Shown: piece by piece, positions 1 to 12,272 of the stretch
Layout of the letters: every line of letters starts with the position of its first letter
Position numbering within the stretch: position 1 is the first letter of the stretch
Origin: Lentilactobacillus kefiri
GTDB lineage: Bacteria; Bacillota; Bacilli; Lactobacillales; Lactobacillaceae
Assembly (NCBI RefSeq): GCF_007989105.1
Contig: NZ_BJVK01000025.1
Coordinates: 1-33,036, forward strand
Reading direction: 5' to 3'
Length of the DNA: 33,036 nucleotides
Made by a program: the position numbers and the translations under genes
Notes under the pieces: model-generated
Databases searched by the model: none
What the model was told of the DNA's origin: nothing
Seen by the model: the letters and a program-made list of their open reading frames with translations, nothing else

Positions 1-326
1 CTAATACCATCGTTGTAATGGCTTCATCTTCGAAAAGGGCAGCTTTGTCTAGTGCGTATTTTTATGCTCGATCTGAGCATATGTCCAAGCGGGCAATTTA
101 CCATCAATTAATTTCAAAATACGGTGATGGATTTTCAAAACATGCAGCAAGTTATGCCGTTCGTCATCTTCATGGAATTAGTTGGAATCGCAATGCCTTA
201 AGATCTGCCCACTTTTACCGTCACAATGAGCATATGTCTAAAAGGGCAATTTATTATCAACTCATATCATCATATGGAGATATGTTTACCCGTTCTCAAG
301 CACGCTATGCAGTTCACCATCTATAA
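1..326 (+). CDS. Ltp-repeat surface protein, 5' end outside window (partial)
   Basis: The reading frame is open to the first base of the window, so the ATG at 18 is probably internal and the signal or anchor region lies upstream. The visible part is two tandem Ltp repeats (Pfam Lipoprotein_Ltp, host cell surface-exposed lipoprotein) with a 51-residue period. Each has the pattern A-L-x-S-A-x-x-Y, then H-M-S-K-R-A-I-Y-x-Q-L, then Y-G-D-x-F, then Y-A-V-x-H-L, joined by a W-N-R-N linker. The family's known member is the phage TP-J34 Ltp lipoprotein, which blocks DNA injection by superinfecting phages; chromosomal copies are mostly uncharacterised. A paralogue with an N-terminal membrane segment is encoded at 19031-19570. 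The domain call is firm; the function is inferred from family membership only. Confidence 0.8.
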   Translation, partial: NTIVVMASSSKRAALSSAYFYARSEHMSKRAIYHQLISKYGDGFSKHAASYAVRHLHGISWNRNALRSAHFYRHNEHMSKRAIYYQLISSYGDMFTRSQARYAVHHL

Positions 327-578
327 AAATAAGTTGGACTGTTTCTCCCTGTTATGAACTTTTATATTCATGGAGTAGCAGTTCATTTCTTATTAAATAG
401 GCGGACGATGGAAAATTAAGCTTTGCAATTTATTGTGTGTTTTTGAGTATCCCAGATTAATTTAATCATTGTTGTGATTTTAAGCAATCTTGATCTCCTC
501 TAATTTAAGCATATTTCGTGACAAGTTGGCTGATGAGGAGTTTGCTAAAAGGCTATATTTAAATGGGAGGTTTACGAT
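327..578. other. Intergenic gap before the MazG operon
   Basis: This 252-base AT-rich gap has no convincing gene. It must hold the end of the Ltp transcript and the promoter of the operon starting at 579. A TATATT at 554-559 could be a -10 box, but no matching -35 is seen. No clear terminator hairpin is visible. Confidence 0.4.
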
Positions 579-890
579 ATGGAATATGATCAATTGATTA
601 AAGAATTAACTGATTTTCGAAACAGTCGTGGCTGGAATCAATACCATACATTGCCAGCATTAGCACGTGCAGTGGGTATCGAATCTGGCGAACTAAATGA
701 ATTGTTTCTATGGGATATGGAAAATGATAAAGAGTTTTCTGATAAACAAAAGCATGACATGGAACTTGAACTGGCAGACATACTGACATATTGCTATTAT
801 ATGTGTGATAAGTTGGGTGTTCAGCCTAATGACATTGTCCAAGAGAAACTGGATATAAATAAGAAACGTCACTGGAAATTTGATAAGTAA
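579..890 (+). CDS. MazG-like nucleotide pyrophosphohydrolase
   Basis: A 103-residue all-alpha protein of the MazG/RS21-C6 (dCTPase-like) superfamily, which hydrolyses (d)NTPs to the monophosphate and pyrophosphate. The metal-binding signature is visible: glutamates 35, 38 and 41 in E-S-G-E-L-N-E, then E64-L-A-D67 in the second helix, fitting ExxE(12-28)ExxD. A G-W-x-Q-Y-H-T element near residues 18-23 is typical of the stand-alone short forms. The start is supported by GGGAGG at 565-570, eight bases before ATG. The next gene follows after only 18 bases, so the two are probably co-transcribed. Housekeeping nucleotide sanitation is possible, but location in front of a GIY-YIG/DUF2075 protein and an Abi-alpha protein suggests a nucleotide-depleting or regulatory role in a defence operon (inference). 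Confidence 0.85.
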   Translation: MEYDQLIKELTDFRNSRGWNQYHTLPALARAVGIESGELNELFLWDMENDKEFSDKQKHDMELELADILTYCYYMCDKLGVQPNDIVQEKLDINKKRHWKFDK

Positions 891-908
891 GGTTGAAAGG
901 TGTTTACG

Positions 909-2681
909 ATGAGTGATATTGGTTACCCCATTATTGAAAAAATTAAATATGACTCCCAAGCCACTGACAATCTCACAGATGTAATCGATGGGGATAAGCT
1001 TAAACGCAGATTACTGATGGAGTATCCGACGGTTTATATTATTTATTCACCGATTAAATCTGGTGGTTATAAAGTTTATGTTGGTGAGACCAATGACATT
1101 GAACGTCGGACTGAGCAGCATTTGAATGAGGACCCTCGGGTAAGGGATGATTGGCGTGAGCTTTCGAAATCCAAGGATGCACAAATGTTTGTGATTGGTC
1201 ATGATCATTTCAATAAATCGTTGACGCTTGATATTGAAAATCAGATGATGCTTTTTATGCTTGGCGTTCCCAGTGTGAAAAGACTCAATAATCGCCGCGA
1301 AAATGAACAAAATGAATATTATACATCTAACGAAAAAGATAAAATCTTTTCTCGAATTTGGCGTAAGCTTCGCGGCTTTGACAAGAATTTATTTCCTGTT
1401 GAAAGTATTATACGAGACTCTGCGATTTTTAAGGCGTCACCATTTCATAACTTAACAACTGAACAAAAGAATGCAAAAGATATTATTGTTGATAAGGTAA
1501 TTGATGCATTGCTTTCAAAGAAAAAGGGCCAACTGATTTTGGTTGAAGGGGAAGCCGGTTCTGGGAAAACAGTTCTTTTGAGTACGATCTTTTATTTAAT
1601 CAGTACTTTGAAAGACGACGGTAGCCCACTTCGACAAGGATTTGATCACTTAAAGAACTATGTTTTGGTTAACCATGATGAGCAGTTGAAGGTATATGAA
1701 GATATTATCGATAAGTTGAATTTGAACTATCAATATGATGATGTTGTAAGTAAGCCCACTCATTTTATTAACTCGCACGATGAAAGTGATCCTGCCGATG
1801 TTGTGCTGGTTGATGAAGCTCACTTGCTGTGGACTCAAGGTAAACAAGCATATCGAGGTCAGAATCAGCTTGATGACATTTTGAAGCGCGCCAGAATTAC
1901 GGTTGCAATTTTTGACCGGAACCAAATTTTGAAGACTGAGGAATATTTGGAGCCCCAGCAAATTCAAAATATGGAAGAAAAGGCAATGAAGCAGAATAAT
2001 CTGATTATGTTGAGTAATCAGCTACGCATTGACGCCAACAAAGAAACAATTGAATGGATTAGAGATATTACTGATAAAAAAATAATCAAAAAAATCCCGC
2101 AAGACAGTAAATATGACTTGAGGATATTTGATGATGCCAAAGAAATGTATGAAGCAATACGAGATAAGGCTTTGGGAGATCAAAAGGCTGGGCTATCCAG
2201 GATTCTTGCTACTTTTGATTGGAAATATAACGGTAAGAGGAAACCAGATAATGGCGGTTATTGGATGGTAACTGCCGGAGATTTGTCGTTACCATGGAAC
2301 CTGCAGCTTAAACCCAAGGGTAGCCGTTCACTGAAAAAGCTGGCTTGGGCTGAACAGGAACAAACACTTGATGAAGTTGGTTCAACATACACTATTCAAG
2401 GCTTTGATTTGAACTATTGCGGTGTCATTATTGGTCCATCTGTTAAGTACCGCAATGGACACGTTGTTTTTGATGCAGATGCCAGTGAGAATACCAATGC
2501 TATTCGAAACCGTACATTACATGATGGCAAAAAGCGGAAAGTTGCCAGTCAGTTGCTTCCTAATGAGTTGAATGTTTTGCTTACTCGTGGGGTTCATGGG
2601 CTATATATTTATGCGGTTGATGATGAGTTGCGCAAAGCGATGTTGAAAGCTGATGAAGATTGCAATAGATTACATAGGTGA
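909..2681 (+). CDS. GIY-YIG nuclease fused to DUF2075 helicase-like ATPase
   Basis: Frame opens at GTG 900, but the ATG at 909 sits eight bases after GAAAGG (895-900), the same spacing and flank (TTTACGAT) as the gene before it, so I take 909 (590 aa). An N-terminal GIY-YIG domain is visible at about residues 40-115: V-Y-I-I-Y, then Y-V-G-E-T-N, then the conserved Arg in E-R-R-T-E-Q-H and a Glu in D-I-E-N-Q. The DUF2075 P-loop ATPase/helicase follows, with Walker A G-E-A-G-S-G-K-T at about 214-221 and Walker B V-L-V-D-E-A-H at about 299-305. The family's C-terminal block N-V-L-L-T-R-G, then I-Y, is near residue 560. A nuclease domain on a superfamily-1-like motor suggests a DNA-cleaving effector or sensor. 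Second gene of the three-gene operon 579-3659. Domain calls are firm; the biological role is inferred. Confidence 0.88.
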   Translation: MSDIGYPIIEKIKYDSQATDNLTDVIDGDKLKRRLLMEYPTVYIIYSPIKSGGYKVYVGETNDIERRTEQHLNEDPRVRDDWRELSKSKDAQMFVIGHDHFNKSLTLDIENQMMLFMLGVPSVKRLNNRRENEQNEYYTSNEKDKIFSRIWRKLRGFDKNLFPVESIIRDSAIFKASPFHNLTTEQKNAKDIIVDKVIDALLSKKKGQLILVEGEAGSGKTVLLSTIFYLISTLKDDGSPLRQGFDHLKNYVLVNHDEQLKVYEDIIDKLNLNYQYDDVVSKPTHFINSHDESDPADVVLVDEAHLLWTQGKQAYRGQNQLDDILKRARITVAIFDRNQILKTEEYLEPQQIQNMEEKAMKQNNLIMLSNQLRIDANKETIEWIRDITDKKIIKKIPQDSKYDLRIFDDAKEMYEAIRDKALGDQKAGLSRILATFDWKYNGKRKPDNGGYWMVTAGDLSLPWNLQLKPKGSRSLKKLAWAEQEQTLDEVGSTYTIQGFDLNYCGVIIGPSVKYRNGHVVFDADASENTNAIRNRTLHDGKKRKVASQLLPNELNVLLTRGVHGLYIYAVDDELRKAMLKADEDCNRLHR

Positions 2682-2702
2682 TTTGTAATAGAGGGTGTGA
2701 AT

Positions 2703-3659
2703 ATGAATTCCATTGATCCAAATGATTTATTGAAATTTGGTACTGCTGTTATTGCTGCAAAAGCGCTTAAGGAACCACTAGATACTTTAAACGACCTTTG
2801 GTTTAACATCTTTGGGTACAGAGTTAAGAAAGCACGAATCAAACATGAATTTTATCTAAAAGAATACAAGAATGAATTAGAGGCTAATTTACAAGCGATA
2901 CCAAGTGATAATATTCAAAACCCAAAACTGTCAATTCTAGGGCCGGCTTTGGATGCATCTCAGTACTATATTGATGAGCCTGAGCTTAGAAAGATGTTTG
3001 CAAAAGTTGCAGCGGGGGCATTTGACAATTCTAAAAATAATAAGATACATCAGTCGTTCGTTCAATTTCTGACGGAGATGTCTTCGAACGATGCTAATTT
3101 ACTTAAGTATATTTCGGGAACTCGAGAACATGCTGTACAGGGCATCACAATGAACGTAGGATCACAAATTCCTATTATGGAAATGTCATATACAGACGGA
3201 GCAATGGAAAATGGACACCGGTCGAATATCTTACCCTCTGTTGTGACCGAGGTGTTATCAAGTCCTGGGGTTAAATTCTCATATAGAGATGGACAAGTTA
3301 GTATGGATACCTTGTTAAGGATGAACCTAATAGAAGTAGATTCTTATAGTCTTGTAAAATGGGCAGGGAAACCGCTTGACGAGGTGTTTAGGGTTAATGA
3401 CGCTATTGATGATTTTCAAAAGGATCATAATCAAGCGATTGACGATTTAAAAAAACAGTTACAACCAGCGGAGTCAAAGCAAATTGATGAGAACACAGTT
3501 GAAATTGAAGTTCAAATACCAACGGATACTCCAAATAACTTAAAAGATGCACTTGGCCACCTGCAGAATATGCGATTGAATAAAACATTCAGAACCGTAT
3601 CTTTAACAGCTATTGGTAAAAACTTCTGTGAGATAGTTTTTGGTCAGAATTTCAATTAG
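2703..3659 (+). CDS. Abi-alpha / DUF4393 family protein
   Basis: I take ATG 2703 (318 aa) rather than GTG 2697, because GAGGG at 2691-2695 lies seven bases before it. The N-terminus (K-F-G-T-A-V-I-A-A-K-A-L-K-E-P, then a W-F-x-x-F-G segment and a basic helical stretch) and the following G-P-A-L-D-A-S-Q-Y-Y-I-D-E-P-E-L-R-x-M-F-A block match the Abi-alpha (DUF4393) family, whose Pfam name comes from an abortive-infection annotation. The motif after it, F-V-Q-F-L-T-E-M-S-x-x-D-A, is also typical. The biochemical activity of the family is unknown to me. It is the last gene of the operon, 21 bases behind the DUF2075 gene and followed by a terminator at 3702-3727. Family assignment is from recalled motif similarity. 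Confidence 0.75.
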   Translation: MNSIDPNDLLKFGTAVIAAKALKEPLDTLNDLWFNIFGYRVKKARIKHEFYLKEYKNELEANLQAIPSDNIQNPKLSILGPALDASQYYIDEPELRKMFAKVAAGAFDNSKNNKIHQSFVQFLTEMSSNDANLLKYISGTREHAVQGITMNVGSQIPIMEMSYTDGAMENGHRSNILPSVVTEVLSSPGVKFSYRDGQVSMDTLLRMNLIEVDSYSLVKWAGKPLDEVFRVNDAIDDFQKDHNQAIDDLKKQLQPAESKQIDENTVEIEVQIPTDTPNNLKDALGHLQNMRLNKTFRTVSLTAIGKNFCEIVFGQNFN

Positions 3660-3701
3660 CGAAATATACTAAACAATTAAGGCATAAATTCAGCAAATCA
3701 G

Positions 3702-3727
3702 AGCATCCTTTTGAGGATGCTTTTTTA
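3702..3727 (+). terminator. Rho-independent terminator of the MazG/DUF2075/Abi-alpha operon
   Basis: A perfect 7-bp stem (AGCATCC with GGATGCT, loop TTTTGA) is followed by a run of six T. It closes the three-gene operon 42 bases after the Abi-alpha stop codon. Confidence 0.85.
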
Positions 3728-3750
3728 ATTAAAAAATAAATGCAAAACAC

Positions 3751-3802
3751 AAGACATTACACCCCATATACGGTATTATATCAATATAAGTACAAAATAC
3801 TT
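3751..3802 (+). promoter_or_regulatory. Candidate promoter and operator of the ADP-ribosylglycohydrolase operon
   Basis: AAGACA (3751-3756), 17-base spacer, TATTAT (3774-3779) is a plausible sigma-A promoter. Just downstream lies an inverted repeat AAGTA-N5-TACTT (3788-3802), placed where a repressor would block initiation. No regulator gene is adjacent, so the operator idea is an inference. Confidence 0.4.
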
Positions 3803-3836
3803 TTATTTTATCTAGTAACAGAAAGAAGGAATACTC

Positions 3837-4832
3837 ATGCGCAGTAAAGATAAAGTTCTGGGCGTGCTTTATGGTCAGGCCATTGGTGATGCAATGGGAA
3901 TGCCATCGGAACTGTGGCCGGTGGAGAAGATCCGAGATCAATTTCATGGCAAGATCACCACTTTTCTTGATGGGCCTGATAATAATGATATAGCTAAGAA
4001 CTTCAAAAAAGGCCAGTATACCGACGACACCAATCAGGCACTTGCAATACTGGATGGACTAATTGAAAATAATTGGCGGCCTGATTCAAAGATTTTGGTA
4101 AAGCATATCATGGCTTGGGCAGAGTCTGTTGGTGCCTGGGAGAACAATATTCTTGGACCGAGCAGCAAAGCAGCGTTAACAGCTCTTAAAGATGGTAAGG
4201 ATCCACGTCCCATCACGGATCAGGCACTAACTAATGGTGCTGGAATGCGGATTTCACCAATTGGTGCATTATTTAATCCAGAAGAATTGGAGCGATTGGT
4301 TCACATGGTCTTTGAGATAACTAAGATTACTCATTCTAGTGACGTTTCAATCAGTGGGGCCTCCATGATAGCTGGAGCCGTAACAGCTGCCATGGCAGAT
4401 CAAAATTGGGATGACGTGATTGATTTTGCGCTACGAGCTAATGATGTTGGGTTCAAGTTTGGCGCACCAACATGGGCAGCCAAGACACGTGACCGCCTTG
4501 AATTGGGCATCAACATTGCTCAAAAAGACAAAGGTTCAGATGAAAAGTTCAGTCAACACATTTACAACTTGATCGGTACGGGAACAATGATTTCTGAGAG
4601 TATTCCGGCAGCTGTTTCAATAGCATATTATTGTCGAGATGTGCAAAAATGTGCGTTGATGTGTGCCAACCTTGGTGGTGATACAGACACAATTGGTGCA
4701 ATGGCAACCGCAATATGTGGTGCAAAAAATGGTAAAGTATCGATCCCATCAGAATGGATCAAACTGGTTGATCAGCAAAATCCTCAGCATGATTTCAATG
4801 AGTATGCGGATAAAATTTTACAATTCAAATAA
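3837..4832 (+). CDS. ADP-ribosylglycohydrolase (ARH/DraG) family protein
   Basis: A 331-residue member of the ADP-ribosylglycohydrolase fold family, which removes N- or O-linked ADP-ribose or hydrolyses related N-glycosides with a binuclear Mg site. The metal motifs are present at both ends: Y61-T-D-D-T, G-A-x-x-G-D-A-M near residues 14-21, and G-G-D282-T-D284-T near the C-terminus. AGAAAGAAGGA a few bases upstream is the ribosome binding site. It is the first gene of an operon with an NCS1 permease (20 bases on) and a PfkB kinase. E. coli yegU (same family) is likewise grouped with a nucleoside transporter (yegT) and a PfkB kinase (yegV), so the substrate is more likely an imported nucleoside-like compound than ADP-ribosylated protein (inference). 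No DraT-like transferase is nearby. Confidence 0.9.
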   Translation: MRSKDKVLGVLYGQAIGDAMGMPSELWPVEKIRDQFHGKITTFLDGPDNNDIAKNFKKGQYTDDTNQALAILDGLIENNWRPDSKILVKHIMAWAESVGAWENNILGPSSKAALTALKDGKDPRPITDQALTNGAGMRISPIGALFNPEELERLVHMVFEITKITHSSDVSISGASMIAGAVTAAMADQNWDDVIDFALRANDVGFKFGAPTWAAKTRDRLELGINIAQKDKGSDEKFSQHIYNLIGTGTMISESIPAAVSIAYYCRDVQKCALMCANLGGDTDTIGAMATAICGAKNGKVSIPSEWIKLVDQQNPQHDFNEYADKILQFK

Positions 4833-4852
4833 CAAATTATGGGGTGAAATTC

Positions 4853-6211
4853 ATGGATGATAATATTATTAAGATTCCAGATTCAGAAAAGACATTAACT
4901 GCTGGCAAACTTTTCTACAATTGGTTTGCTGCCAATATCGGTATTATGGGATTTGTATTTGGCGCAATGATTGTTAGCTATCATTTATCATTTTTTCAAG
5001 CCATTATTGCATCGTTTGTTGGGGCATTGTCTTTCGCAATCCCCGGTTGGGTTGCCATGATCGGCCAAAAGGAGGGTGTAACAACCTTCAAATTAAGTCG
5101 GGCAGCGTACGGAACTCATGGCAACAAAATTCCTAACGCAATAGCCTGGTTCAATATGGTGGGTTGGCTTGCGGTCAACGTGATTACAGGAACTTTGTTG
5201 CTGGTATCATTATTCAATATTATTAATGTGAAAAAGTCTTCAGTTACGACAGCCATTGCGCTTGCCATCTTTGGCGGGTTAGTAGTTCTATCTGGTTTAT
5301 TGAAAGAAGCCACGTTAGCAAAAATTCAAACTTGGTTAAGTTGGATATTTGGGATTCTAACAGTTTTGATTCTTGTATTGTTTCTTATTAAAGCAAAATG
5401 GCAGGAAGCATTTAGCCTTCCATCTGGAAGTTGGATTACTGGTGTTTTGCCTGCTGTCAGCATTGTTGCTGCTGGATCCGGAATTTCCTGGTCAATGGCT
5501 GCCGCAGATTGGGGAGCCTACGTTACCGAGAAAACGAAACCATCTGCCACTTTTTGGAATACTACGATGGGCGGAGCAGTACCATTGTTTGTGTTGATGG
5601 CTGGAGGAGTGTTGCTGAGTACAATTGAGCCTTCATTGGCAACGACTGGAGATCCATTTGGCGTTATGTATTCGGCACTACCTGCATGGATTGGTCCAAT
5701 TTACTTCCTTGTTGCTGCTGGGGGTCTGATTCCGCAATGTATTATTTCATTTCGTTCTGCACGGATTAACTTGGCAACAATTGGTATTAATGTCACCCAA
5801 CGGACATCTTTGATTATTCATGGTGCCATTGTATTAGCGATTCCAATCTATGTATTGTTCATATCAGGTAACTTTCTCCGTAACTTTGAGTTGTTCTTGA
5901 ACTTCTTAGGGATTTGCTTGGCAAGTTGGGTGGCAATATTTTTGTGCGATAGTGTGATGTTCAGATCAAAAGGTTATGATATTAGCCTACTTGAAAATGA
6001 TTCAAAGACTCATTTTAATTGGCGTGGAATTATTTCCTGGATATTGGCCACAACAACTGGATTCTTATTCACTAACAACGCTGTCTGGGATGGTCCGTTT
6101 GCACATGGTATCTTTAGAAATAATAGTTTAGGCGTCTTTATTTCAGCAATTATTGCGATTGTTTGCATGCTTTTATGGAAGGTTGTCGTTCCAAATAAGA
6201 AGGTGGCATAA
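4853..6211 (+). CDS. NCS1-family permease (cytosine/purine/allantoin type)
   Basis: A 452-residue integral membrane protein with about twelve hydrophobic segments. The N-terminal block (L-F-Y-N-W-F-A-A-N-I-G-I-M-G), the G-x-x-S-R-A-A-Y-G-T-H-G-N-K-I-P-N motif near residues 80-95 and the W-N loop are typical of NCS1 symporters, which import nucleobases, nucleosides, allantoin, hydantoins or thiamine with a cation. The frame starts at GTG 4844, but ATG 4853 lies six bases after GGGGTG (4841-4846) and is the better start. Between a glycohydrolase and a sugar or nucleoside kinase, it probably supplies their substrate. The exact substrate cannot be told from the sequence. Confidence 0.87.
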   Translation: MDDNIIKIPDSEKTLTAGKLFYNWFAANIGIMGFVFGAMIVSYHLSFFQAIIASFVGALSFAIPGWVAMIGQKEGVTTFKLSRAAYGTHGNKIPNAIAWFNMVGWLAVNVITGTLLLVSLFNIINVKKSSVTTAIALAIFGGLVVLSGLLKEATLAKIQTWLSWIFGILTVLILVLFLIKAKWQEAFSLPSGSWITGVLPAVSIVAAGSGISWSMAAADWGAYVTEKTKPSATFWNTTMGGAVPLFVLMAGGVLLSTIEPSLATTGDPFGVMYSALPAWIGPIYFLVAAGGLIPQCIISFRSARINLATIGINVTQRTSLIIHGAIVLAIPIYVLFISGNFLRNFELFLNFLGICLASWVAIFLCDSVMFRSKGYDISLLENDSKTHFNWRGIISWILATTTGFLFTNNAVWDGPFAHGIFRNNSLGVFISAIIAIVCMLLWKVVVPNKKVA

Positions 6212-7096
6212 ATGAACAAAACATTAGTGATCGGTGCAGCATTTGTTGACGTGTTGATGGATGTTCCGAATTTACCAACAACTGGTGAAGATGTAAGTGG
6301 CAAGCTACGGGCGAATATTGTTGGTGGTTCTGCTTTTAACGTTTATGGTGCAATTAAGTATGCTGAACAGGATGTAGATTTATTTGTTCCGATTGGCAAG
6401 GGACATTATGCTGATTTGGTATCAAAAGATATGGTTAAAAAAAGTATCAAACCCCTTCTAAAAGTTGATGGTGCAGATAATGGTTGGGATATTTCATTTG
6501 TGGAGCCGGACGGTGAAAGAAGTTTTTTGACTGTTAATGGAATTGAACAGCTTTGGCAGCCTGATTGGTTCAAAAAAATTAATATTTCTGATTATGACGC
6601 GTTTTATATTAGTGGTTATGAAATGGAAGATGAAAAAGCTGCACGTGTCATTTTGGATGCATTGGATAAACGAGAATCTAGTGCTGTTGTGTTATTTGAT
6701 GCTTCACCACGGATTGAATATATTTCTGATGAGACAATTCAGAGATTGTACGATAATCATGTTATTATACATTGTAATGAAGACGAAATTGATCATCTGG
6801 TTCCTGGGGTTAGCAGCTTAGAGCTGAAGTGTCGTCAGTTATTTGAAAAAACGCACTCGCCCGTTATTTTGACGCTTGGTAAACAAGGTGCCTATCTTTG
6901 TGAGGGTAAGTATTCACAGATGATCCGTTCTATCAATGTTAAAGTGGTTAATACGCTTGGAGCGGGTGATACGTTCTGTGGTGGTTTTCTGGCTGGATTG
7001 AGTCAGGACATGAGTGTTCAAGAAGCTGTTCAGGAGGGAAATGAGATTGCTGGACTTGTTGTTGGTCAAGACAGTGGGAGCTTATTGGACAGATAG
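6212..7096 (+). CDS. PfkB-family sugar/nucleoside kinase
   Basis: A 294-residue ribokinase-fold kinase. The PfkB N-terminal signature surrounds G-G-S-A-F-N (about residues 33-38), and the C-terminal signature N-T-L-G-A-G-D-T-F-C-G-G contains the catalytic base D253 and the anion hole. It starts directly after the permease stop codon with no intervening base, with AAGAAGG just inside the previous gene as ribosome binding site, so translation is coupled. With the glycohydrolase and permease upstream, the likely route is uptake of an N-glycoside, hydrolysis and phosphorylation of the released sugar, or phosphorylation of the intact nucleoside. E. coli yegV is a functional parallel by gene context. 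Substrate unknown. Confidence 0.87.
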   Translation: MNKTLVIGAAFVDVLMDVPNLPTTGEDVSGKLRANIVGGSAFNVYGAIKYAEQDVDLFVPIGKGHYADLVSKDMVKKSIKPLLKVDGADNGWDISFVEPDGERSFLTVNGIEQLWQPDWFKKINISDYDAFYISGYEMEDEKAARVILDALDKRESSAVVLFDASPRIEYISDETIQRLYDNHVIIHCNEDEIDHLVPGVSSLELKCRQLFEKTHSPVILTLGKQGAYLCEGKYSQMIRSINVKVVNTLGAGDTFCGGFLAGLSQDMSVQEAVQEGNEIAGLVVGQDSGSLLDR

Positions 7097-8596: not shown

Positions 8597-8659
8597 CACC
8601 CAATGTATCCTGAGCATGTAGGAATCTTGCATTCCACAGGCCATATACATTGGGAGGGT
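8594..8659 (+). promoter_or_regulatory. Inverted repeat/hairpin that would mask the ribosome binding site of the PAP2 phosphatase
   Basis: Positions 8594-8608 pair with 8645-8659 in 14 of 15 positions (single A/A mismatch at 8598/8655). The right arm contains the whole Shine-Dalgarno sequence GGAGGG (8653-8658). Inside, CCTG/CAGG (8609-8612, 8637-8640) and GGAAT/ATTCC (8621-8625, 8631-8635) continue the fold. If transcription starts before 8594, the leader RNA would hide the ribosome binding site; if it starts later, only the DNA is symmetric. Confidence 0.6.
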
Positions 8660-8664
8660 ATTTT

Positions 8665-10440
8665 ATGTTTTTTACAAAACATTCACAATTGATGAAGCTG
8701 ATGGCAGGTTCCTTTACCGTCATTTTGACTGGTTCTGCATTGCTCACTAGTCAAGAATCCGTCCAGGCAAAATCACAGGCATCTACCAAGCTTGAGAAGT
8801 TGCTTGCACCGCACAAAGCCAGTTACGGCTACTATGTTGATCAATATCTCTTAAATCGAAAAGAAAATGATTCGCCGGATACTAATCCATCGACGGCATT
8901 ATTTAATAATACATTTGCTAAGTTCTATAAGGGAGATGGCACTAAGCTAAACCCCAAGATTCTTCAAGAAAATATTGATAAATCAGTTAAAATTTCTGAA
9001 AATGTCACACCAGCTGAAGAACTCCGGTCATACATCACTGATCGGCAGGACAGTCCTTATGATGTGATTCGAGGATTGGGGCCATACGCTGAGGCTTTCA
9101 TTGAGAACTCGAACGCCAAGACTCTGTTCTATAATTTACCGACTAGCGAATTGCCAGCTGACACCAAGGATGATCCAGGATCAGGCATTACTTGGGCTGA
9201 TGAAAAATCCAAGTTGGGGTCAATGGTTGACTTGGTGGATACGACTGCACTTTGGTATTATTCCTCATCTGGAAACGCCAAGCAGTTCTACAAATACATT
9301 CGGCCCTTCCGGCAAGATCCGCGTGTGCAGGTCAATCCGTATTTGAAAGCGGCTTTTGATGCCACACCTCAGAACGATTATGATTTTCCAAGCGGTCACA
9401 CAACCCAAGCCTGGGAGACCGGTTTATCGATGGCCTACGCCTTTCCAGAGCGTTTCCAACAACTGGTTACCCGATCATCTGAAGTCGGCTATGATCGAAT
9501 CCTGGTGGGTCGACATTCACCTCTGGCAGTTATGGGTGGCCGAATCTTGGGAACAGCGGTTGCTGCATCTGTTTTGAATAATTCGCAGAATAAATCAATT
9601 GCTAATAAAGCTTATCAGAATGCCCAAAGTGTCTTATTGCATTCAAAGGTTACCAAATCAAAGGATGATTACAAGAACTACCAGACTAATTTGAAGAACT
9701 TTGAATACCGCATGACATATGGTTACAAGCCAATCTCTTCCACCAAGGAAAAGATGCGCGTACCAAAGGGTGCCGAAGTTCTCATTCAAACCCGTTTTCC
9801 ATATTTGAACGCTACCCAACGTCGAGAAGTTCTATACACAACCGGATTTAAGTCAGGCTACCCAATGGGCCAAGATACTGAGGGCTGGGGCCGATTGGAC
9901 TTGTTTAAAGCAGGTGCTGGATTTGGCAGCTTGCTGGGAAACACAACGGTTAATATGAATGCAAAACGAGGGGGATTCGATGCTAGTGATACTTGGCGCA
10001 ATAATATTTCTGGTAGTGGTGCGCTGATTAAGAAGGGAACTGGAAGTTTGACTTTGGAGGGCGCCAACTCTTATAAAGGTGGAACGTTTATCAAGGACGG
10101 CACGATTATCGCTGCCAATAAAGATGCCCTGGGATCTGGCAATCTTAAGTTGAGTGATGGAACTTTGAAGCTATCTACCAAAGCTGTGAGTGTGAAGGGC
10201 AATTATACTCAAGGCAAAAAGGGCACAGTCAGGGTTAATGGTAATAGTCGAATTGTTGCCAAAGGGACTGGCCGTCTTGGTGGTAAATTAGTGATTAACT
10301 TGAAGTCTAAACCGTCTAAGAAACATGTGCTGTTTAAGTTTAGCTCACGACATGGTAAGTTTGCTCACGTTACAGTTTCTGGTGGGTATAAAGGCTGGCA
10401 TGTGGCTTATACGAAGAATGGTGTTGAGTTGGTAAAATAA
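8665..10440 (+). CDS. Secreted PAP2-family acid phosphatase with C-terminal autotransporter-type beta-strand repeat
   Basis: I take ATG 8665 (591 aa), six bases after GGAGGG; the frame's TTG at 8650 precedes that site. A signal peptide ends near V-Q-A-K (about residue 36). The class A/PAP2 phosphatase motifs are K206-x6-R213-P, P242-S-G-H245-T and R-x5-H284. The last motif normally reads H-S-P-L-D; here it is H284-S-P-L-A288, so the Asp that assists the nucleophilic His is replaced by Ala. After about residue 420 comes a glycine-rich beta region with T-W-R-N-N-I-S-G-S-G and L-x-L-x-G-A-N-S-Y-K-G-G-T, matching the autotransporter-associated beta-strand repeat seen in larger phosphatases of this type. 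The expected role is dephosphorylation of organic phosphates outside the cell; the upstream PhoP-like box agrees. Activity is uncertain because of the Ala substitution. Confidence 0.85.
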   Translation: MFFTKHSQLMKLMAGSFTVILTGSALLTSQESVQAKSQASTKLEKLLAPHKASYGYYVDQYLLNRKENDSPDTNPSTALFNNTFAKFYKGDGTKLNPKILQENIDKSVKISENVTPAEELRSYITDRQDSPYDVIRGLGPYAEAFIENSNAKTLFYNLPTSELPADTKDDPGSGITWADEKSKLGSMVDLVDTTALWYYSSSGNAKQFYKYIRPFRQDPRVQVNPYLKAAFDATPQNDYDFPSGHTTQAWETGLSMAYAFPERFQQLVTRSSEVGYDRILVGRHSPLAVMGGRILGTAVAASVLNNSQNKSIANKAYQNAQSVLLHSKVTKSKDDYKNYQTNLKNFEYRMTYGYKPISSTKEKMRVPKGAEVLIQTRFPYLNATQRREVLYTTGFKSGYPMGQDTEGWGRLDLFKAGAGFGSLLGNTTVNMNAKRGGFDASDTWRNNISGSGALIKKGTGSLTLEGANSYKGGTFIKDGTIIAANKDALGSGNLKLSDGTLKLSTKAVSVKGNYTQGKKGTVRVNGNSRIVAKGTGRLGGKLVINLKSKPSKKHVLFKFSSRHGKFAHVTVSGGYKGWHVAYTKNGVELVK

Positions 10441-10517: not shown

Positions 10518-12272
10518 TTAAAGTTGAATGATTTGGTTGATTAATTTTTGACCTCGCTCATTGATGGTTGTAGGATTCCATTCAGGATAACTGGTAAGAT
10601 CTTTTGTTAACATCACAAGAGAGTCTTTGTATCCATTGTTTCTATTGGGTTCTCCAGATTTTTTCATCTGAAAATTCGAATTTTTCAGTGATGAATTATC
10701 TGGCCCATACCAAAGCGTCAAATTTCCTAACTGCCATAGAGAATTTTTGAAATTTATGTCATCCGCTGACGTACAACCCCAGTCTGAATAATCTTTAGGA
10801 ACTTGTGGCATTATATGATCCAAGTGTATTTTGGAGTTGGTGGGAAGTAGGTCTCCACGTTCCTTACTATTGTTGAAAGTGTTCTCGATGATACGTAGCA
10901 GTGCTTTGGCAAACTTTTCGTCTTTACTGAAGTCAAAGCTTTCCATTGCACTTTGTATTTTTTTATCGGTTAATCGTTCAGTAATCGCATGCTCGTTCAA
11001 ATAGTCTATCGAATCACCAATATCCCGACTCTGAACAATTTTTGATGCCTCTTGCGCGAATAACTTTTCTAACCAATTGGTTCCCCCACCAACAATTTTG
11101 TTTCGTAGAAGAATCCTTTGTATCATTGAAAGAGCGGTACTAAATTCCTTTTGGGTTGCTTCAATCTTGAATAGTGCGAGCACCATTGGATAATAAGCGT
11201 GAAAGTTAAGGGCGTTGAGTTCGTTAATGATGGTGACTGATTTATTTCCAATCTGGTCTGTAAATGAATCATCAATTGGATTTACACCATTGAGCTCTGC
11301 AAATTCATCGGATAGTTTTCCGATATCATATGAAAAAGTTAATATTCCACTAACATCATTTTTAAATTCATCAAGGACTTTCCGATATAAGTTTCTTTTA
11401 GTTGCAAATTGATGTTGAGAATTCCAAAGATACCGGATGTAATCAGTTAGGTCTTCTGTTTGGAGATTTTGTTGGGCTAACTGCCAACTATCTTTTAGTC
11501 TGGTTCCTTCAGTTTGTGTACGAGCCCGACCAAAAAAGTTACTCTTAATTAAGTCCGCAGAAGTTAGATCTTTTCCACGGGCATTTAATGTTTGAAATAT
11601 TTGAAATGCGTTTACTTCATCTGATGTCAATATCTCTATTACAAAAAAGTGATTGAGTAAAGTATTGTACAAACGCATAACGGTGTCCTCAAGTCGTTCA
11701 TTACTATTTTGAGAGCTTTTTATAGATTCAAGAATTTGGTTATACGCATGTGCCATGATATTTTGAGTCGGCTTTGTGCCCTTTTTTCTAGTGTCCCTTT
11801 TTTGTTTTACGTCTTCAACTTTTTTAAAGTCTTTAGGTGTTTGAATTTCTTCTCGGAAAAAGTTACTGCCTTCTCCTTTTTGTAAAAGCCGTAAACTGCT
11901 GTCATCCGTGGTATCGCCTATATAATCCTCAATAATTTTTACAACTGTTCGGCTATTTTTGTCTACTGGCCCCTTGGAGATTGCTGCCAGTAGATCACGA
12001 ACAACTGCTAAAAAGATGGTAATTGTTGTCAGTCTTTGTTGTCCATCAATTATTTGTTCGCGAGGATTATTATCGTTCTTATCAACAGCAACTATGGGGC
12101 CAAAAAAGTATTCAGATGTTTCTTCACGATGGCTTTCGTCCTCGAGATCGTTAATAAAATCTCCAACTTGGTCTTGCTCCCACGAGTAGCCACGTTGATA
12201 GTCAGGAATTGTTGCTCTTAAATCCTCTAAATAATTTTTAATGTTTTTTCTTGAAGGATAGAATTTTACCAT
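10518..12272 (-). CDS. GmrSD-like DUF262/DUF1524 protein (modified-DNA restriction family)
   Basis: 584 residues with both halves of the GmrSD architecture in one chain. The N-terminal DUF262 (ParB/Srx-like NTPase) shows I-P-x-Y-Q-R-G-Y-S-W at 22-31 and the hallmark D76-G-Q-Q-R80. The C-terminal DUF1524 nuclease has the H-x-x-P signature L-D485-H486-I-M-P489 and a downstream L-G-N-L-T-L element. Family members include GmrSD (cleaves glucosylated hydroxymethylcytosine DNA), BrxU and SspE; they restrict phage DNA according to its modification. No methyltransferase, BREX or phosphorothioation genes are in the window, so it would act alone as a type IV-like enzyme. ATG is preceded by GGGGAGA at good spacing. 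It is divergent from the 5'-nucleotidase gene and AT-rich relative to it. Domain assignment is strong; the target is unknown. Confidence 0.9.
   Translation of the reverse strand: MVKFYPSRKNIKNYLEDLRATIPDYQRGYSWEQDQVGDFINDLEDESHREETSEYFFGPIVAVDKNDNNPREQIIDGQQRLTTITIFLAVVRDLLAAISKGPVDKNSRTVVKIIEDYIGDTTDDSSLRLLQKGEGSNFFREEIQTPKDFKKVEDVKQKRDTRKKGTKPTQNIMAHAYNQILESIKSSQNSNERLEDTVMRLYNTLLNHFFVIEILTSDEVNAFQIFQTLNARGKDLTSADLIKSNFFGRARTQTEGTRLKDSWQLAQQNLQTEDLTDYIRYLWNSQHQFATKRNLYRKVLDEFKNDVSGILTFSYDIGKLSDEFAELNGVNPIDDSFTDQIGNKSVTIINELNALNFHAYYPMVLALFKIEATQKEFSTALSMIQRILLRNKIVGGGTNWLEKLFAQEASKIVQSRDIGDSIDYLNEHAITERLTDKKIQSAMESFDFSKDEKFAKALLRIIENTFNNSKERGDLLPTNSKIHLDHIMPQVPKDYSDWGCTSADDINFKNSLWQLGNLTLWYGPDNSSLKNSNFQMKKSGEPNRNNGYKDSLVMLTKDLTSYPEWNPTTINERGQKLINQIIQL

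Follow-up and report, generated by a model that had tools for sequence, protein, structure and literature searches.

A mobile gene pair of Lentilactobacillus kefiri encoding a DCTPP1-like pyrophosphatase and a GIY-YIG nuclease fused to a Schlafen-type helicase: a candidate restriction-like defence module

A run of three genes lies near the start of Lentilactobacillus kefiri contig NZ_BJVK01000025.1, whose 33,036 nucleotides, part of a 2.49-Mb genome, are referred to here as the window. The genes encode a small MazG-type nucleoside triphosphate (NTP) pyrophosphatase (gene 1), a GIY-YIG nuclease fused to a Schlafen group 3 (SLFN-g3) helicase (gene 2), and an Abi-alpha protein (gene 3). An earlier note on this DNA had proposed that all three act together as an anti-phage operon. 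We find instead that genes 1 and 2 recur as a pair across many genomes in surroundings rich in defence genes, and that gene 3 is a passenger. A defence role of the pair is likely. Its most plausible form, to which we assign a probability of about 45%, is a mobile two-gene restriction-like module in which the nuclease is accompanied by a partner that cleans modified deoxycytidine triphosphate (dCTP) from the nucleotide pool.

The family assignments of the earlier note were borne out by Pfam. Gene 1 matches MazG-like PF12643 (expectation value, E, 3e-11), and gene 2 matches both GIY-YIG PF01541 (E 4e-5, residues 44-78) and PF09848, 'SLFN-g3_helicase', formerly DUF2075 (E 6e-95, residues 211-574). 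Gene 3 matches Abi_alpha PF14337 (E 3e-32) with 112.7 bits, against a curated cut-off of 29.

The association of genes 1 and 2 was examined in the best 80 of at least 542 relatives obtained from a scan of named genomes, a set that favours close kin and includes near-copies within genera. A member of the gene 1 family adjoins gene 2 in 60 of these 80 loci, which span the Lactobacillales, the Staphylococcaceae and one actinobacterium; the two genes are on the same strand each time and are separated by -37 to +36 bases according to our own open reading frame (ORF) calls. The pyrophosphatase lies upstream of gene 2 in Lentilactobacillus and Levilactobacillus, among others, and downstream of it in, for example, Companilactobacillus, Tetragenococcus, Trichococcus and Staphylococcus. 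Among 100 relatives, including the genome itself, 31 carry a gene 2 relative that reaches the GIY-YIG part, and the pyrophosphatase directly adjoins it in 22. Within the Lactobacillaceae every one of the 13 close homologues (E <= 9e-25) that gene 1 has there adjoins gene 2, and six weak matches (E >= 6e-5) lie away from it. In 398 genomes of the phylum, the gene 2 profile was found in 12 besides the genome itself, the gene 1 profile in 26 and both in nine; with the own genome excluded, the pyrophosphatase is thus present in 9 of 12 genomes with a gene 2-like protein as against 17 of 385 others (p 1e-9). In the nine genomes that carry both, the two genes are neighbours at least once, with no gene between them and at most 77 bases apart.

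The pair is conserved in sequence and unstable in position. Relative to Lentilactobacillus sunkii, among the closest relatives listed (94 % identity in gene 2), the ratio of nonsynonymous to synonymous substitution rates (dN/dS) is ~0.03 for gene 2 (dS ~0.9) and ~0.02 for gene 1 (dS ~1.6), indicating strongly purifying selection on both. The presence of gene 2 among relatives is patchy and its surroundings change. In a quick tree with long branches, built from 79 of the 80 loci together with one viral locus and the window (81 rows, the broken L092 being omitted), the upstream, downstream and absent states of the pyrophosphatase require 16 changes. This gene tree is at odds with the species, as actinobacterial rows fall among Bacillota and Companilactobacillus rows among Enterococcaceae. 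At least 80 % of gene 2 is contained in nine plasmid records, the best five of which comprise two with the pair and three with gene 2 but no pyrophosphatase ORF of the gene 1 family; one viral contig contains the pair. The pair appears to have undergone repeated transfer, rearrangement and loss, a pattern that argues for a functional bond between the two genes rather than the inheritance of one old operon. Relatives of gene 2 are split into two frames at L072, L074 and L200 (in L. otakiensis, L. kosonis and one further genome), which shows loss of the module through decay alongside its gain. At another locus (L194, 4704-10961, genome G081), the pyrophosphatase, a GIY-YIG/SLFN-g3 protein, a second SLFN-g3 protein, an AAA ATPase gene and an unknown gene of 191 codons form one run.

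Gene 1 was compared with the PDB by means of a profile of 42 rows, consisting of the window and 41 of 59 distinct partner sequences. The best match is a pyrophosphatase for which no substrate is named (4qgp, E 1e-31). RS21-C6/DCTPP1 matches at E 8e-20, and deoxyuridine triphosphatase (E 2e-7) and MazZ (E 5e-6) follow far behind; on these weaker matches the identification of gene 1 as a dUTPase or MazZ-like enzyme was rejected. Of the families whose substrate is known, the DCTPP1-type dCTP pyrophosphatases are therefore the nearest to gene 1 in sequence. Of the eight DCTPP1 pocket residues named in the excerpted text of PMC4491611, seven (Trp47, Glu63, Glu66, Trp73, Glu95, Asp98 and Tyr102) are invariant in 42 of 42 rows, their positions having been transferred by hand from the profile-PDB alignment; the ExxE...ExxD metal site and the Trp/Tyr base pocket (Trp47, Trp73 and Tyr102) are thereby kept. 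According to the same excerpt, DCTPP1 prefers dCTP and 5-methyl- or 5-halo-dCTP, and a passage of PMC10742078 counts both E. coli Orf135 and DCTPP1/RS21-C6 among the hydrolases of 5-methyl-dCTP. Gene 1 differs from DCTPP1 in one pocket residue, considered below, and in having a nuclease-helicase as operon partner. Neither gene 1 nor two other pyrophosphatases that were scanned gave a PADLOC match.

The catalytic parts of gene 2 are intact. In an alignment of 19 rows, from which the broken L072 and L074 were left out, Y43, Y57-x-G59, R67 and E110 are invariant in 19 of 19; we take the catalytic GIY-YIG motif to consist of the two Tyr of GIY/YIG, an Arg and a Glu. The helicase motifs GxAGxGKT, DExHLL, QxR, GSTxTxQG and NELNxLxxRG are equally invariant, and cover the Walker A, Walker B and later motifs that mark a superfamily 1 (SF1)-type SLFN-g3 helicase. 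Because a sequence search of the PDB gave matches mostly to the P-loop part, a fold comparison was chosen. The best match of the AlphaFold model (predicted local distance difference test score, pLDDT, 82) is human SLFN11 (E 1e-8, template modelling score 0.34), followed by Dna2, a deep-sea helicase and Upf1-type helicases. By fold, then, the helicase part resembles Schlafen group 3, and the pair carries a bacterial relative of the human SLFN11 helicase. Unlike Schlafen proper, gene 2 has an N-terminal GIY-YIG domain in place, and no Schlafen core (AlbA-type) nuclease domain was found in it by Pfam at E <= 0.1. PADLOC matches to gene 2 are weak and partial: PDC-S41 (E 8e-7), which partly matches SLFN-g3 proteins, mad8 (E 9e-6), and PDC-S14 (E 1e-5), which matches the GIY-YIG part.

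The pyrophosphatase family is also found beside other nucleases. In five of the nine phylum genomes that carry both genes (G142, G299, G360, G483 and G404), the gene 2 match covers the helicase only, and in the four full-length proteins among them SLFN-g3 stands behind an N-terminal region of ~250 residues that has no Pfam name. Nine such regions, which include these four pyrophosphatase partners and three from genomes lacking the pyrophosphatase, share an invariant E...D...E-L-K-Q-W that by eye is a PD-(D/E)XK-like pattern; no Pfam-named PD-(D/E)XK domain was found in the four proteins scanned, and the one row searched had no PDB match. A third type of partner is an HNH protein. Its gene lies between the pyrophosphatase and the SLFN-g3 gene at L269, and accompanies the pyrophosphatase with no SLFN-g3 gene at L255, where a phage terminase gene is present. 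In IMG/VR a same-strand HNH relative adjoins the pyrophosphatase in 33 of 47 loci (L274-L317), forming a two-gene cassette of viral contigs; these loci are partly near-copies and hold 24 distinct HNH sequences.

The best PDB match of the HNH family, over its C-terminal half, is 6yex (E 3e-6), which the excerpt of PMC7897488 describes as VcaM4I, an EVE-HNH enzyme that binds DNA containing 5-methylcytosine or 5-hydroxymethylcytosine. The structure model of one member (mean pLDDT 65) is confident only in the first ~170 residues. The top fold matches of this N-terminal domain are the McrB N-terminal domain with 5-methylcytosine DNA (E 2e-6) and without it, and next come two archaeal proteins, VcaM4I (E 2.5e-3), many YTH domains and THYN1 with 5-methylcytosine DNA, at sequence identities of only 7-15 %. 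As modelled, the domain has the fold of modified-base readers; cytosine as the mark it would read is favoured by the top matches, though not proven. Two of four HNH proteins scanned match PADLOC mREase_IV (E 7e-11 and 2e-9). The viral-contig partner thus resembles VcaM4I in the sequence of its C-terminal half and McrB in the fold of its N-terminal domain; no such reader was found in gene 2. At two Trichococcus-like loci (L115, 8938-9702; L116, 9105-9863), a relative of the viral-type HNH gene lies shortly before the GIY-YIG/SLFN-g3 and pyrophosphatase genes.

The surroundings of the pair were compared with arbitrary regions of related genomes. The neighbour set comprised 148 ORFs, up to two genes on each side, at 39 loci drawn randomly from the 80, cut at 600 residues and with ORFs below 80 residues dropped; 148 control ORFs were drawn randomly from 338 in 20 arbitrarily picked regions. 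At E <= 1e-15 the neighbours matched 98 PADLOC families and the controls 3, counted per family and not per protein, and this supports the defence call of the earlier note. Among the 25 of the 98 families listed, type IV restriction enzymes lead (PDLC03658 with five members, PDLC03657 with two), the NUDIX candidate PDC-S07 has three members, and single neighbours match Cas3, Cas8c, PD-T4-3, PDC-M39B and HEC-06, among others. The control matches are to mad3 (11 of 148 ORFs), mad2 (one) and a GlgB-like family (one). By motif, nine control ORFs and one target ORF resemble ABC ATPases, from which we infer that the mad3 matches are generic ATPase matches. With control hits counted as generic, specific hits number at least 13 for the neighbours and 0 for the controls (Fisher p 2e-4), on the assumption that differently named families are different proteins.

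One class of neighbour repeats the plan of the pair. SauUSI is a nuclease fused to a helicase beside a nucleotide pyrophosphatase. In 7 of the 80 loci a SauUSI-like protein is encoded no more than three genes away from gene 2, with a NUDIX gene beside five of the seven; DUF3427 has 34 sites in 30 of the 100 relatives, and by rough arithmetic ~0.1 such close placements would be expected among 80 loci in the absence of any clustering of defence genes. The one SauUSI-like neighbour scanned has Pfam PLD, superfamily 2 (SF2) helicase and DUF3427 domains, and it and a second one match PADLOC mREase_IV; six of the seven match the scanned protein at E <= 1e-30, the seventh being cut by a contig end. 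The best match of a NUDIX neighbour is 5x1x, deposited as MutT (E 3e-33), and CTP pyrophosphohydrolases (E 6e-17 and 1e-13) and MutT2 (E 2e-15) come ahead of 1mut (E 2e-10), which we take to be E. coli MutT. Orf135 of E. coli is a NUDIX enzyme as well. Both arrangements consist of a nuclease-helicase fusion beside a nucleotide pyrophosphatase, but the families differ, being PLD, SF2 and NUDIX in the one and GIY-YIG, SLFN-g3 and MazG-type in the other. By annotation, four of the five plasmid stretches have restriction or CRISPR genes within 8 kb. The fifth, on an L. plantarum plasmid typed as mobilizable (L319, NZ_CP028230.1, 4348-14771), is a collinear island that runs from the NUDIX and SauUSI-like helicase genes through the pyrophosphatase and gene 2 to a later DUF2357 gene. 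In the stretch from an L. amylolyticus plasmid, gene 2 is preceded by genes for NUDIX, DUF262 and restriction-endonuclease proteins, and an ADP-ribosylglycohydrolase gene is also near.

We propose that gene 2, as a GIY-YIG nuclease mounted on a Schlafen-type SF1 helicase, would degrade foreign DNA, most plausibly DNA with modified cytosine or a phage replication intermediate. A dependence on modified DNA is suggested by the company that gene 2 keeps and not by a reader domain. Gene 1 would hydrolyse 5-modified dCTPs, and perhaps dCTP too; its most likely role would be to keep modified cytosine out of the host DNA and so spare the host from the nuclease, while also denying modified cytosine to the phage. 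On this most economical account, pyrophosphatase and nuclease would address one chemistry at two places, in the nucleotide pool and in the DNA. A more tentative extension is that such a pool guard, removing 5-modified dCTP, is a standard companion of nucleases that cut modified DNA in bacteria and prophages. The guard would possibly be DCTPP1-like with GIY-YIG/SLFN-g3, PD-(D/E)XK-like/SLFN-g3 and EVE/YTH-like-HNH proteins, and a NUDIX enzyme with SauUSI-like proteins. This version would explain why one pyrophosphatase family stands beside three kinds of nuclease and a NUDIX gene beside a fourth.

If it is true, the pool guard is the metabolic counterpart of the methyltransferase in classical restriction-modification, leaving the host free of the mark and the phage without a building block. 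Type IV-like enzymes have no modification partner, and to our knowledge it is seldom asked how a host avoids cutting itself when modified nucleotides are salvaged. Were a dedicated pyrophosphatase the guard, self-avoidance would become testable with two genes, and an unnamed, widespread cassette would gain a function. No PADLOC 2.0.0 model names the pair, which is a widespread defence-island module without a model there, and gene 3 matches a candidate, PDC-S47; the earlier note, too, did not know the trio as a named system. No description of the pair was found in the open-access literature, a scope outside which most subscription papers and bioRxiv lie, nor, judged by title, any open-access paper on DUF2075 with a defence title. 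PMC9503650, which touches on a pyrophosphohydrolase, MazG, anti-phage action, a nuclease and a helicase, concerns in its excerpt another phage neighbourhood.

Several observations weigh against a guarded, modification-dependent nuclease. Gene 2 lacks a pyrophosphatase within the stretch examined in 20 of the 80 loci, and among the nine genomes of the 100 relatives in which it stands alone, seven lack any match to gene 1 and in two the match lies elsewhere in the genome. The seven count against a strict guard, and gene 1 cannot be an obligatory protector; the 20 solo loci show it to be helpful rather than indispensable. The pyrophosphatase also exists as solo copies, the PD-(D/E)XK-like/SLFN-g3 type occurs without it in G465, G432 and G415, and at one viral locus (L284) a gene for a 563-residue SLFN-g3-like protein adjoins it on the opposite strand. 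His38, which contacts cytosine in DCTPP1, is replaced by Leu, Ile or Val in 41 rows and falls in a gap in one, at a position extrapolated to one residue before the aligned stretch. Pfam recognised no modified-base reader in gene 2, and the YTH domains in the fold list of the HNH protein are readers of N6-methyladenine. The control ORFs yield 13 member-hits if taken at face value, and the type IV neighbours may reflect the tendency of defence islands to gather many systems.

The alternatives differ in what they make of gene 1 and of the mobility of the pair. The nucleotide depletion that the earlier note ascribed to gene 1 would make it the effector of a starvation defence, in which gene 2 would sense or cut the DNA of the phage and gene 1 would destroy dCTP and related nucleotides, so that phage replication stalls. 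We consider this unlikely, although the genes are close and co-directional and plain dCTP, too, is hydrolysed by DCTPP1 in the excerpt of PMC4491611. That gene 1 is an NTP pyrophosphatase stands; the claim needs narrowing, as the nearest relatives are DCTPP1-type dCTP pyrophosphatases and cleaning of the pool is for that reason at least as likely as starvation. Defences that deplete deoxynucleoside triphosphates exist, such as dCTP deaminases and dGTPases, but Pfam recognised no sensor or switch domain in the small single-domain gene 1 protein, 20 of the 80 gene 2 loci do without a pyrophosphatase, and the pairing of the same family with a modified-base-type HNH nuclease in viral contigs is better fitted by cleaning. 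A repair or housekeeping function, in which the GIY-YIG/helicase processes DNA and the pyrophosphatase cleans the pool with no role against phage, is improbable. GIY-YIG and helicase proteins do co-occur in repair, as in UvrC/UvrB, solo pyrophosphatases exist, and a short SLFN-g3 paralogue is present in most genomes of the genus, with like neighbours in two genomes examined. The paralogue, however, is a different gene, with the same neighbours and no pyrophosphatase in those two genomes, and was rejected as support; the patchy presence, changing surroundings, plasmid carriage and broken copies of gene 2 in some species, its discordant tree and its defence-rich neighbours all run counter to housekeeping. 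Carriage of gene 2 on plasmids, the one viral contig with the pair and the DCTPP1-like/HNH cassette of viral contigs would also fit a module by which a plasmid or prophage guards itself against rival elements. To this we give a low probability; the idea overlaps with defence rather than excluding it.

Least probable is the three-gene system of nucleotide depletion, nuclease-helicase and Abi-alpha with which the analysis began. The architecture is as the earlier note read it, with three co-directional genes at gaps of 18 and 21 bases (using ATG starts 909 and 2703, each preceded by a ribosome-binding-site-like stretch, as judged by eye) and a clear terminator, whose 10-pair stem at 3700-3723, followed by T's, is the longest among three terminator-like sites in 300-3900, where shuffled sequences yield 1.9; promoter-like sites number 14, where 14.4 are expected, and none stands out. 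The families of genes 2 and 3 are ones that occur with defence genes or take their name from defence, and gene 3 probably shares a transcript with the pair. The co-occurrence of the three families failed, however, since only genes 1 and 2 recur. A two-sequence Abi_alpha profile of our own found no member in the other loci (0 of 80), though it does find five other Abi_alpha sites of relatives, and among the 100 relatives the Pfam family has seven sites above its cut-off, in five genomes, and adjoins a GIY-YIG/SLFN-g3 gene only here. In one genome (G051) Abi_alpha lies upstream, separated from gene 2 by ~1.5 kb that include an opposing gene, but a Cas9-like gene follows gene 2 there, which indicates a general island. 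Similarity of the DNA to five close relatives stops at 2629-2653, 28-52 bases before the end of gene 2; on the right flank, an ADP-ribosylglycohydrolase operon, similarity to four relatives starts at 3750-3773, and other genes precede the operon in them. Because similarity breaks on both sides, the Abi_alpha stretch looks like a separate cassette or insert, and the trio as a unit was rejected on co-occurrence and breakpoints alike. The proposal of a defence operon thus holds for the pair and its surroundings and not for the trio. We take gene 3 to be a second defence gene, independent of the pair, that came to lie behind it. It is like known Abi-alpha in family but unlike a stand-alone Abi-alpha in setting, as it sits behind an unrelated pair. 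In the excerpt of PMC6356687, Abi-alpha (EF2833 of Enterococcus faecalis V583 prophage 6) is reported to act as a one-gene system through premature lysis; in E. faecalis a member of the family carried on a plasmid blocks phage Idefix in this way, with no such partners.

Features of the window, and related loci in which the pyrophosphatase has another SLFN-g3 partner
Feature	Coordinates or loci	Strand	Description
Gene 1	579..890	+	103 amino acids; DCTPP1-like all-alpha dCTP pyrophosphatase by sequence, Pfam MazG-like PF12643
Gene 2	909..2681	+	GIY-YIG nuclease fused to SLFN-g3 (formerly DUF2075) SF1-type helicase; alternative GTG start at 900
Gene 3	2703..3659	+	Abi-alpha PF14337 (formerly DUF4393); alternative GTG start at 2697; passenger outside the conserved module
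Intrinsic terminator	3700..3727	+	closes the three-gene run
GmrSD-type restriction endonuclease	10518..12272	-	both GmrSD domains; PADLOC HEC-06
Pyrophosphatase beside SLFN-g3 proteins	L240, L241, L268, L270, L271		four full-length ones with E...D...ELKQW instead of GIY-YIG

Positions 1-2630 of the window are collinear with L. otakiensis at 83 % DNA identity. The GmrSD-type enzyme, ~7 kb from the pair, matches HEC-06 at E 4e-105 and is a further defence gene of the window; at E 1e-5 nothing encoded in the five plasmid stretches matched it in sequence, including the DUF262 protein of L321. Upstream of the pair (3-326, + strand) lies a gene for an Ltp-type repeat protein (PF07553); the Ltp protein of a Streptococcus phage blocks superinfection. 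Beyond the terminator, 3837-7096 (+ strand) encode an ADP-ribosylglycohydrolase, identified by Pfam, followed by permease-like and sugar-kinase-type genes recognised by eye. Finally, 8650-10440 (+ strand) encode a PAP2 phosphatase fused to a passenger-associated transport repeat (PF12951), which seems unusual in a Gram-positive bacterium.

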